Below, in pieces: positions 47,983 to 55,125 of a stretch of 64,000 nucleotides of DNA. The notes under the pieces were generated by a model. The model did no database searches. It was given only the letters and a program-made list of their open reading frames with translations, and was not told the origin of the DNA. The translations under genes and the position numbers were made by a program. Origin of the DNA: Paludibacter sp. Lineage in GTDB: Bacteria > Bacteroidota > Bacteroidia > Bacteroidales > Paludibacteraceae. The stretch lies in the NCBI GenBank assembly GCA_024710005.1, contig JANJVQ010000028.1, positions 1-64,000 on the forward strand. The letters are read 5' to 3'. Positions within the stretch are counted from its first letter, which is position 1. Each line of letters opens with the position of its first letter.

Positions 47983-48244
47983 CCCACCTCACCCCAGCCC
48001 TCTCCAGAGGAGAGGGAGAGTGCATATAACCATGTGACATGTGACTAAGAGGGGTAATTGTTTATATTCTTAATTTATCATTATGTTTTTACTTAATCTT
48101 GAACCTTTTGCTCACTCCCTCTCCTTTGGAGAGGGCTGGGGAGAGGTTTTTCTTTTGCTCACTCCCTCTCCTCTGGAGAGGGCTGGGGTGAGGTTTTTCT
48201 TTTGCTCACTCCCTCTCCTTTGGAGAGGGCTGGGGTGAGGTTTA
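47971..48244. repeat. Repeat cluster: three tandem 47-bp units (about 48105-48244) plus an inverted partial copy (about 47971-48021)
   Basis: cttttgctcactccctctcctttggagagggctggggtgaggttttt units start at 48105, 48152, 48199; inverse cacctcaccccagccctctccagaggagaggg. Confidence 0.92.
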
Positions 48245-51102: not shown

Positions 51103-52611
51103 TTAATTGACTGAAGATAATTTTGTGTTTGTGAGAAATTGATGATATGCTTTTGTCCATAGCCCTGTATCTTTCGGAACAAATTCATCTAACTGAACAG
51201 AATCACAGATAATTTTGCGCATTTCCGGCAATGAATCAACCACTCCGGCCGCTTTAGCCTGAATCATGATGTTACCGATCGCGGTAGCTTCGGATGGACC
51301 GGCAACGACCGGAATACCAATGGCATTGGCCGTAAACTGATTCAGCAAAGTATTTTTTGAACCGCCACCGATTACATGCAATTTTTGAATCGGGAAGGGA
51401 GCGAAGGTTTTCAACAAACCAAGTACATAATTGTATTTCAATGCGAGACTTTCGAAAATGCAACGTACTGTTTCTGCATGTGATGACGGGGCATTTTGGT
51501 CTGTAAATATACAGTAATCGACAATCGCCCGGGTCATGCTTGCCGGATTGGCAAACAATGGGTGATCCGGATCAATCATGGATTGAAAGGCTGGAACCGA
51601 TTCTGCCATTTGCACCAGTTTCTCGTACTCATAACAAATACCCTCTTTTTTCCATTCTTTCAGACATTGTTCCAGCAACCACATGCCGGTGATGTTTTTC
51701 AAGAAACGGGTTGTACCCTCTACCCCACCTTCATTGGTAAAATTAAGTCTAAAAGATTCCTCATTGATGATGGCATCTCTTACTTCAATACCCATCAGCG
51801 ACCAGGTTCCTGAACTCAGGTAAGCAAAGTTTTCATTCAATGCCGGAACAGCAGCTACTGCTGATGCTGTATCATGACCTGCAACCGCCACAACCGGAAC
51901 TTTACCCAGTTCACATTCGGCGGCAATGTCATCCCGCAACGTTCCAATTACATGACCGGGCGTGACAATATCACCTAAAACTGAGGGAGAAATTCCAGCT
52001 TTTTCAAGCAACTCATTTTCAAATTTCTTTGTAACCGGGTTCAGCATCTGAGAAGTAGACGCGATGGTATATTCGACCACTTTCTGACCTGTGAGCAAAT
52101 ACGCAAGGGCATCAGGCATAAATATAATTTCTTTCGTCGCTTTCAGCAATGAATTATTGGCCTGACTCAGGGCAAACAATTGATAGAGACTATTGAAATT
52201 CATGACCTGGATTCCGGTCAATTCATATACCCTCTCACGGGGAATTATTTTGAAGTATCTTTCAGGAGCATCGACAGTATGAGGATCACGGTAGGCATAC
52301 GGAGCACCGAGGATTGTACCATCTTCGGCAATCAAAGCAAAATCAACACCCCAGGTATCAATACCAATAGATGTTATTTCAACTCCTTCTTTTTTGGCAG
52401 CTGCTAATCCGGCTTTCAGGCTTTCAAACAATGCATAGATGTTCCAGTGAAGATGCTCTCCGATTTGAAGCATCTGGTTAGGAAAACGTGTCAGTTCCTT
52501 CATCCGAAGTCTGCCGTTTTCGATAGATCCCAATATAGAGCGACCACTGGTTGCCCCAAGGTCGAAAGCTAAAAAAGATTTGTTTCTCATGATACATTTT
52601 AATCCTGACAC
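51103..52611 (-). CDS. rhaB: rhamnulokinase
   Basis: FGGY kinase; FDLGATSGRSILG, SIGIDTWGVDFALI, VAGHDTASAVAAVPA, LSSGTWSLMG. Confidence 0.92.
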   Translation of the reverse strand: MSGLKCIMRNKSFLAFDLGATSGRSILGSIENGRLRMKELTRFPNQMLQIGEHLHWNIYALFESLKAGLAAAKKEGVEITSIGIDTWGVDFALIAEDGTILGAPYAYRDPHTVDAPERYFKIIPRERVYELTGIQVMNFNSLYQLFALSQANNSLLKATKEIIFMPDALAYLLTGQKVVEYTIASTSQMLNPVTKKFENELLEKAGISPSVLGDIVTPGHVIGTLRDDIAAECELGKVPVVAVAGHDTASAVAAVPALNENFAYLSSGTWSLMGIEVRDAIINEESFRLNFTNEGGVEGTTRFLKNITGMWLLEQCLKEWKKEGICYEYEKLVQMAESVPAFQSMIDPDHPLFANPASMTRAIVDYCIFTDQNAPSSHAETVRCIFESLALKYNYVLGLLKTFAPFPIQKLHVIGGGSKNTLLNQFTANAIGIPVVAGPSEATAIGNIMIQAKAAGVVDSLPEMRKIICDSVQLDEFVPKDTGLWTKAYHQFLTNTKLSSVN

Positions 52612-52710
52612 AAAAGTATGTATCCAACAAGAAAATGACCTGAGAAAAATGACATTTAAACCTTACTTTTTGTTCAGTCTTTCACCTCAAGGCTTTTTCA
52701 TCGTTCCATA

Positions 52711-52741
52711 AAACTGATCTGCCCCCAAAAAGTTGGACGAA
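52711..52741. mobile_element. Solo IS-end-like remnant
   Basis: ctgatctgcccccaaaaagttggac resembles IS3/IS150-group terminal repeats; no transposase ORF nearby. Confidence 0.4.
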
Positions 52742-52800
52742 GAAGTGCCTGTAAATTCCTTGAAAGCCCTTCGAAATATGAAATAAGCTTAGCATATCGC
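52735..52800 (-). pseudogene. Short degenerate AraC-family HTH fragment
   Basis: gaagtgcctgtaaattccttgaaagcccttcgaaat matches gaagttcctgtaaactccttaaaagccctgcgaaat in the intact AraC gene near 54408-54443. Confidence 0.55.
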
Positions 52801-52822
52801 CGAAATCACACCATGCAAATTA

Positions 52823-52905
52823 CGTAATATTTGGAGTTATAAACCAATTTTTAGCGTAATATTTGGAGTTAAACATCGTTTTTTTGCGTAATATTTGGAG
52901 TTAAA
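52823..52905. repeat. Three direct repeats CGTAATATTTGGAGTTA with exact 32-bp period
   Basis: Copies begin at 52823, 52855, 52887. Confidence 0.93.
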
Positions 52906-52917
52906 GACAAATTAAAG

Positions 52918-52925
52918 TATCTTTG
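52918..52925 (+). promoter_or_regulatory. Bacteroidetes -7 box TATCTTTG for the AAA ATPase gene
   Basis: Matches TAnnTTTG upstream of the likely start MRNRQYANTLL (52965). Confidence 0.5.
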
Positions 52926-54212
52926 AACAATAAAAATGAATACTTATTTGAATTACATCAGAACATGAGAAACAGACAATACGCTAACACATTACTAAAA
53001 AAAAGTATTTCCAGATTCGGAAGGATACTTGTATTGACAGGAGCACGCCAAACAGGAAAAACAACCTTGGTTCGTCGTCTTTTCCCCGACTACACCTATA
53101 TTTCAATCGAAGATCCGGTAATGCGCAGCACATTCAGCAATCTTACAGCAGAACAATGGAAAAGTATATACCCAAAAGCCATTCTTGATGAAGTTCAAAA
53201 AGAACCGCAACTGATCGAAAGCATCAAAGCCACTTACGATCAGTGGGACGAACCACGTTATATTTTGTTGGGTTCGAGTCAGTTGTTGTTAATGGAAAAA
53301 GTACGTGAGAGTTTAGCCGGAAGATGTTCAATTGTCGAGATTTACCCGCTTACACTACCTGAATTGCAAACAAAAGGTTGGGAAGACCCTGTAGTTCCAT
53401 CTTTGTTTCAACAGGAAATTCAACAACAAATTGATGGTGATTATTTACCTTCATTTTTATTGGACAAGAAACATATTTCGAAGTTGGCTGCTTATAATCA
53501 CTACCTCCAATTTGGTGGTTATCCAGCAGTTAGTGGCTCCGATACAACTCCTGATGAAAAAGCGGAATGGTTAAAAAATTATGTCCGCACTTATTTGGAG
53601 CGTGATGTACGAGATTTGGCTTCGTTTCGGGATTTGGAACCGTTCGTAAAACTCCAACAATATATCGCACTCAATACTGGCTCACTCACCAATGCATCGT
53701 CAATTGGTAAACAGCTGGGTGTATCTGTAAAAACAGTTCAGCGCTATATAAAATACTTCGAAATGAGCTATCAGGCACTTAATTTACCTTCATGGTCACG
53801 TAATCCAAACAAGCGTTTGGTTAAATCATCGAAAGTACATTATATGGACCTGGGGGTGATTCACGCAGTCTTAAATAAACGAGGCGGACTAACCGGAAAT
53901 GAATACGAAAGTGCCATTGTTTCGGAAATCTACAAACAAGCCAAAAGTGTTGATTCAGCAGTACAGTTTAGTTTTTTACGTACACACGATGGCAAAGAAG
54001 TTGATTTACTGCTCGAATTTCAGGACTTTTATTATGCTTTCGAAATAAAAATGGCCGAAAGAGTAAACCGAACTGATGCTAAGCATTTGTTTGGCTTGGA
54101 AGAAATACTTGATAAGCCGGTAAAGAAAGCCTTTTTGTTATCCAATGATGTAGACACAAAATATTTCGACGAAAAAACAATAGCTATACATGCTGCGATG
54201 TTTTTGGGATAA
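52923..54212 (+). CDS. AAA ATPase with C-terminal DUF4143 (likely start 52965)
   Basis: ILVLTGARQTGKTTLVRRLFPDYTYISIEDP, AILDEVQKEPQLIESIKATYDQ, C-terminal nuclease-like region. Confidence 0.9.
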   Translation: MNNKNEYLFELHQNMRNRQYANTLLKKSISRFGRILVLTGARQTGKTTLVRRLFPDYTYISIEDPVMRSTFSNLTAEQWKSIYPKAILDEVQKEPQLIESIKATYDQWDEPRYILLGSSQLLLMEKVRESLAGRCSIVEIYPLTLPELQTKGWEDPVVPSLFQQEIQQQIDGDYLPSFLLDKKHISKLAAYNHYLQFGGYPAVSGSDTTPDEKAEWLKNYVRTYLERDVRDLASFRDLEPFVKLQQYIALNTGSLTNASSIGKQLGVSVKTVQRYIKYFEMSYQALNLPSWSRNPNKRLVKSSKVHYMDLGVIHAVLNKRGGLTGNEYESAIVSEIYKQAKSVDSAVQFSFLRTHDGKEVDLLLEFQDFYYAFEIKMAERVNRTDAKHLFGLEEILDKPVKKAFLLSNDVDTKYFDEKTIAIHAAMFLG

Positions 54213-54216
54213 TCCC

Positions 54217-55125
54217 TCATCCCTTCACCTCCACGCTATTCCGGTACTCCAACGGTGTCATACCCATTCTTTTTTTAAAAAATACCGGGAAGTAGTCAGG
54301 ATTTTCGTAATTCAGACTGTAAGCTATTTCTTTTACGGATTGTGAGGTAGTGGATAACAGTAATTTGGCCTCATTCAGCTTTAATTCCACCATGTATTTG
54401 GAGGGAGAAGTTCCTGTAAACTCCTTAAAAGCCCTGCGAAATCCGGAATAACTTATATTCAACTCTCCTGCTATATCTTCGGCTGAAATATTCTTGTAAA
54501 CCGATTCCCGCATGATTACCTTGGCTTTGTTCATTTTCTGAATCAGGTCTTCATCCTGAAAATCACGGGTTTTGTCACGGTAATACATCAATCCCAAAAT
54601 ATGCATGACAATTCCCAAAAGCGCTTGCTGATAACCTGCCCGCTCTTCGTTGGCAATTTCGATGGCTTTCAAATATAAATCAACAATACGTTCATTGAGT
54701 CCGATTGTAAACACCGGAGGTCGGTTAATAAAAAACCCTTCTTCCACAATTTTATCAATAATATCTCCTTTAAAACCAATCCAGTATTCATTCCACCCCG
54801 ATTTTTGAATGGGTTTGTAGGTATGCCAGACACCAGGCATCAAAAAAAACATTTTACCTTCGGTGATGTAACAGGTTTGTTTATTGGAGGTTCCGAAAGT
54901 AAAAACACCGTTCCCGTTTGTAATGTATAAAAGCTGGTATTCATTTAATACGCGACCCTTTTCCGGATTAAAATAATAACCTTTAGGGTGATTCTTCGGG
55001 GGATAGACTTCGTTTTCTTCTATTTTCTGACAACCGACGGTAGTGACTGTTAATCCCCACAGCTCATCTTCTTCGGAAGTCACCATGTAATTTACATTGC
55101 GGTTTAAATGATGGGGCATTTGCAT
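54217..55125 (-). CDS. AraC-family transcriptional regulator (probable rhamnose regulator)
   Basis: Cupin-like N-terminus and EDIAGELNISYSGFRRAFKEFTGTSPSKYM...SLNYENPDYFPVFFKKRMGMTPLEYR. Confidence 0.9.
   Translation of the reverse strand: MQMPHHLNRNVNYMVTSEEDELWGLTVTTVGCQKIEENEVYPPKNHPKGYYFNPEKGRVLNEYQLLYITNGNGVFTFGTSNKQTCYITEGKMFFLMPGVWHTYKPIQKSGWNEYWIGFKGDIIDKIVEEGFFINRPPVFTIGLNERIVDLYLKAIEIANEERAGYQQALLGIVMHILGLMYYRDKTRDFQDEDLIQKMNKAKVIMRESVYKNISAEDIAGELNISYSGFRRAFKEFTGTSPSKYMVELKLNEAKLLLSTTSQSVKEIAYSLNYENPDYFPVFFKKRMGMTPLEYRNSVEVKG

Follow-up and report, generated by a model that had tools for sequence, protein, structure and literature searches.

A three-copy repeat array as a probable autoregulatory operator in the promoter of a DUF4143 (PDC-S01) ATPase gene

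DUF4143/AAA_14 ATPases form the candidate system PDC-S01 of PADLOC, which is very common, being reported among the commonest prokaryotic candidate defence genes, and for most such candidates validation is pending (PMC12988326). Neither a DNA target, operator or other DNA site nor any regulation, self-regulation included, was found described for this family in the literature searched (subscription literature lay outside the search), and the operator system presented here is new in the sense that no prior description was found. The window considered is a stretch of 64,000 nucleotides from Paludibacter sp. (contig JANJVQ010000028.1, assembly GCA_024710005.1), which carries one such gene preceded by three repeats at a 32-bp pitch. 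This array is interpreted, with a probability of about 0.8 and from sequence comparisons and structure models, as a three-copy autoregulatory operator located in the promoter of the ATPase gene and bound by the ATPase itself.

Among described systems, RptR is a defence-island repressor that binds cooperatively to multiple direct repeats overlapping its native core promoter (PMC12255303). The window array likewise consists of repeats overlapping the core promoter of its own gene. RptR, however, is a small dedicated repressor acting on 9-bp repeats, whereas in the window an effector-like ATPase-nuclease appears to carry the reading residues and the sites are 26-bp dyads placed 32 bp apart; the arrays point to self-sensing and self-silencing by the effector in place of a separate repressor. 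Cdc6/Orc1 initiators and STAND ATPases also have an AAA ATPase fused to a DNA-binding winged helix, and Foldseek matches include 2qen, 2qby, ORC and Apaf-1 (TM-scores low, identity at most 16%). The window protein differs from them by an additional PD-(D/E)XK domain and by sites lying in its gene's own promoter. Among solved structures, no full-length close homologue was found, the best matches being Walker ATPases of the 2fna/2qen type. Iteron systems and their replication initiators were compared because some family members have repeats 22 bp apart; the present arrays lie in chromosomal gene promoters, and the protein has a DUF4143 domain and not a Rep domain.

The repeat array and its recurrence in the DUF4143 family

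The 17-bp sequence CGTAATATTTGGAGTTA is present in three exact copies (52823-52839, 52855-52871 and 52887-52903; steps of 32 and 32), and the -7 box TATCTTTG follows directly (Table 1). The first-pass annotation had reported these copies, their phase, the box and a downstream DUF4143 AAA ATPase gene, and is borne out in each respect. With up to 3 mismatches allowed, CGTAATATTTGGAGTTA has 3 matches in the window, and at least 3 matches were obtained in 0 of 100 dinucleotide shuffles; Tandem Repeats Finder gave a period of 32 with 2.8 copies. Within the 3.24-Mb genome, exact copies are confined to the window array, and the sole match with 2 mismatches lies on a different contig. A regulon was rejected as a reading, the genome having no further copy of CGTAATATTTGGAGTTA, and an RNA element was likewise rejected, no Rfam family being matched in 52600-53100. 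A search of IMG/VR for viral decoys gave no exact match to the window array or to two idealised operators.

Upstream regions were compared for 200 distinct DUF4143 genes, taken from relatives and from named genomes, with 561 genes from the same loci as controls. The best tandem repeats upstream of the DUF4143 genes peak at 32 bp (55 genes at a score of at least 15), few being found at 33 or 22 bp, while periods were scattered among the controls. With the period fixed at 32 and a score of at least 11, arrays were detected for 74/200 DUF4143 genes versus 7/561 controls, and four of these seven controls have their intergenic region in common with a divergent DUF4143 gene. The controls rule out 32-bp repeats as a general property of upstream regions. 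In newly fetched genes, a period of 32 or 33 was found in 48 of 101 (first set) and 35 of 57 (second set), other periods occurring in four and zero genes. In the protein tree the 32-bp class extends across deep branches, and the 22-bp class forms one clade. A single 32-bp pitch for all DUF4143 genes was rejected, given this clade and other members lacking a detected repeat. Outside Bacteroidota, an array was found on the Treponema saccharophilum plasmid pTS1 and a weaker one on a Desulfosarcina plasmid; none was seen upstream of an Agrobacterium member.

The recurrence of the motif upstream of other DUF4143 genes had been proposed as a check, and its absence there as a refutation. The exact motif is indeed absent from those genes; what is kept is the spacing, at which paralogues have motifs of their own. 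The proposed refutation was mis-stated, because each protein would read its own operator only, and a different motif for each paralogue is what self-reading leads one to expect. The window repeats are one local instance of an operator array that is widespread and embedded in promoters, and are neither a product of chance nor a local peculiarity.

Several relatives of the window gene show variants of this arrangement. A second DUF4143 copy in the genome (L005), one of seven DUF4143 matches, has its own repeat TTTCTGTAATTTCAAA at 22-bp spacing. The 22-bp class to which it belongs (with L031, L037, L051, L061, L062, L067 and L202) has direct repeats TGTAATTTCAAARTT in which dyads are not obvious. 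A further DUF4143 gene of the same genome (L009, G000:C35) is preceded by two similar elements TTTGTGnnnATAACCATAAAAA located 41 bp apart, about four helical turns. A truncated, stop-containing relative of the window gene (L020, G010:C324) retains two CGTAATATTTGGAATTA repeats at 32-bp spacing.

Dyad structure and promoter register

The 32-bp units are dyads of 26-27 bp made of two 13-bp half-sites, the sequence of which varies among paralogues; the common half-site of the 32-bp arrays is WWTTTTNSGATTN. In 56 of 88 arrays, symmetry about a shared centre was above the 95th percentile of a unit-shuffled null. In the window dyads the left half-sites are conserved and the right ones degenerate. 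The promoter element TAnnTTTG occurs in the 100 nt preceding 67.5% of DUF4143 genes versus 20% of controls. Taken modulo 32, its start lies about 14-18 bp from a dyad centre, the centre being some 16 bp upstream of it (Rayleigh p ~3e-17, n=59), a register found again in an independent new set (Rayleigh p ~2e-9, n=34). Relative to the -7 box, the TTTCAAA elements of the 22-bp clade are placed at about -14/-15, -36/-37, -58/-59 and -80/-81. Dyad sites are thus in the gene's own promoter and overlap its core elements, as looked for in an autoregulated DNA-binding protein, and the proximal dyad would cover the core promoter in the manner of a repressor site.

Neutral tandem duplication of a promoter segment would account for those arrays that are near-perfect copies, such as the two perfect 32-bp copies on the Bacteroides uniformis plasmid CP054202.1. 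It is considered extremely improbable, as the 32-bp pitch recurs with unrelated sequences on deep branches of the family, most units are dyads, and neither the promoter phase nor the protein covariation reported below would be expected from it. The ATPase might instead bind as an activator, or use the array to sense itself or to assemble, as on a docking platform that activates the nuclease, and not chiefly repress; this is a somewhat less remote alternative, although still unlikely. Arrays comprise 2-5 sites, more than simple repression needs, and structural neighbours have ORC/Cdc6-, Apaf-1- and NLR-like folds; yet the proximal dyad almost always lies over the -33/-7 region, and one class has, downstream of the box, an extra dyad at offset -14, an unusual place for activators. 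The effect of the operator is probably repression rather than activation.

Covariation between operator bases and ATPase residues

Residues were numbered from the family member L078 (227 and 317 correspond to K256 and H341 in the window protein), and dyad centres were picked with a matrix that took no account of the specificity positions. Residue 227 comes second in the recognition helix in each of two AlphaFold2 models. Over 99 clean sites it was paired with operator position -6 as follows: K/R with G (39/39), Q/E with C (26/26) and N with T (12/13). The strongest of 4823 pairs of residue and operator position in the pooled set were 227/-6, 317/-13, 225/-5 and 226/-7; they involve the three residues opening the recognition helix of the winged helix-turn-helix (wHTH) and one residue, 317, that the PD-(D/E)XK domain carries in its FWRT-X loop, immediately before the catalytic Asp. 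The base at position -13 is A where residue 317 is H/Y/F, C where it is K, and T where it is T. The window protein fits this code: in its half-site AATATTTGGAGTT, position -6 is G and position -13 is A.

Codes were fixed before the test genes were fetched (227: K/R to G, Q/E to C, N to T; 317: H/Y/F to A, K to C, T/V to T). In the first blind test, 31 of 44 bases were correctly predicted for all 227 classes (mean of 11.7 and maximum of 22 in 5000 shuffles), and 27 of 34 for K/R/Q/E/N only (shuffle mean 10, maximum 21). In the second, on a third gene set, 20/27 bases were correct from residue 227 and 26/33 from residue 317 (shuffling p ~5e-5 each). The shuffling p-values of both tests ignore kinship among the new genes. 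Taken together, the covariation and the two blind tests indicate indirectly that the operator sequence is probably read by residues of the protein itself.

Besides this disregard of kinship, several points weigh against self-reading of the array. Predictions from residue 227 failed in part for A, S, L and V, A being often paired with A. Correction for ancestry leaves modest power: phylogenetically independent K/R–G pairs were concordant in 5-6 cases and discordant in 0 (p ~0.03), and the other classes were too few. About half of the DUF4143 genes, whole subfamilies among them, have no detectable array, and the right half-sites of the window dyads match at just 7-8 of 13 pairs.

The same data bear on control of the ATPase gene by a separate host transcription factor binding the arrays. 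Their location in promoters is compatible with it, and many defence genes have their own regulators, RptR with the direct repeats in its promoter being an example (PMC12255303). Against this, paralogues in one genome carry different motifs (window gene versus L005), the window motif is confined to its own gene, and operator bases track residues on the DNA-binding surfaces of the ATPase, blind tests included; a separate factor is accordingly judged very unlikely.

Since its own residues appear to read the array, the DUF4143 ATPase very probably controls its own gene. The first-pass annotation had suggested same-face operators for an autoregulator, perhaps the ATPase; the shared architecture, the promoter phase and the residue-predictable bases favour this suggestion. 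Autoregulation is thereby supported far beyond its initial basis, and extended to what would be a family-wide, decodable operator system.

Proposed mechanism, protein features and flanking sequences

In the proposed mechanism, ATPase dimers would occupy each dyad, the wHTH recognition helix reading the inner part of the half-site (positions -5 to -7) and the PD-(D/E)XK loop its outer end (-12/-13). At the 32-bp pitch, three helical turns, successive dimers would share one helical face and neighbours could touch. The last dyad lies over the promoter immediately before the -7 box, so that RNA polymerase should be blocked by binding. A potentially self-harmful ATPase-nuclease would thereby be held at low expression until release, which a change of nucleotide state or invading DNA might bring about. 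The wider proposal, rated only a little better than even, is that DUF4143/PDC-S01 proteins are self-repressing one-gene defence machines, with a DNA specificity written as a two-domain readable code in which the residues at the helix start specify -5 to -7 and the nuclease-fold loop beside the catalytic Asp specifies -12/-13. If true, operators of unstudied members could be predicted from the protein sequence, and a nuclease-fold loop acting as operator reader would surprise specialists. With a cognate DNA site, a promoter array and a code linking residues to bases, an otherwise unknown gene becomes open to direct biochemical assays.

The window protein was assigned to the family by Pfam (DUF4143, PF13635, 114.4 bits for a cut-off of 28.1; AAA_14, PF13173, 85.9 for a cut-off of 27) and by the PADLOC model PDC-S01 (E 6.7e-85); its role in phage defence is a prediction, the word defence being taken from the PADLOC classification. 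The AlphaFold2 model (pLDDT, the predicted local distance difference test, 91.5) contains an AAA domain, a winged HTH and a PD-(D/E)XK fold. In an alignment of 47 relatives, no variation was seen at G31, K32, D75, E76, D347 or E360 and hardly any at K362; D347, E360 and K362 are the predicted catalytic residues.

Table 1. Features of the ATPase locus, in window coordinates
Feature	Position	Strand	Basis or remark
Repeat unit 1	52823..52854	+	dyad centre 52839
Repeat unit 2	52855..52886	+	dyad centre 52871
Repeat unit 3	52887..52918	+	dyad centre 52903, 15 bp upstream of -7 box
Bacteroidota-type -7 box TATCTTTG (TAnnTTTG)	52918..52925	+	sequence; position relative to dyads conserved in relatives
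AAA_14 + wHTH + PD-(D/E)XK (DUF4143) ATPase gene, 415 amino acids, PADLOC PDC-S01	52965..54212	+	profiles; AlphaFold2 model
AAA_14 ATPase domain, residues 20-134 (Walker A GARQTGKT, Walker B LDEVQ)	53022..53366	+	profile match
wHTH, residues 225-274 (recognition helix 255-267, K256 second residue)	53637..53786	+	secondary structure of the model; covariation with operator -6
PD-(D/E)XK nuclease-fold domain, residues 311-409 (D347, E360, K362; loop residue H341)	53895..54191	+	model, alignment, covariation

Comparison with orthologues indicates that the array belongs to the gene rather than to the location, because homology is bounded by the array or gene start and by the gene end. With an 88%-identical orthologue, DNA homology covers exactly 52823-54213, from the first repeat to the stop codon, and the sequences outside are unrelated; a 99% orthologue is syntenic, and for the remaining ones the match begins at the array or gene start and stops at the gene end.

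Other repeats were also observed in the window. The 59 bp upstream of the array at 52733-52791 are 83% identical to 54398-54455, part of an AraC-family gene downstream of the ATPase, the pair being a relic or partial duplication that flanks the cassette. The 25-bp sequence CTGATCTGCCCCCAAAAAGTTGGAC at 52714-52738, which precedes the array by about 85 bp, recurs exactly or except for its first base at several sites in two related genomes and looks like the end of an insertion sequence. Finally, a 47-bp repeat is present in three tandem copies at 48105-48243, at the end of a neighbouring lipoamide-dehydrogenase-like open reading frame.
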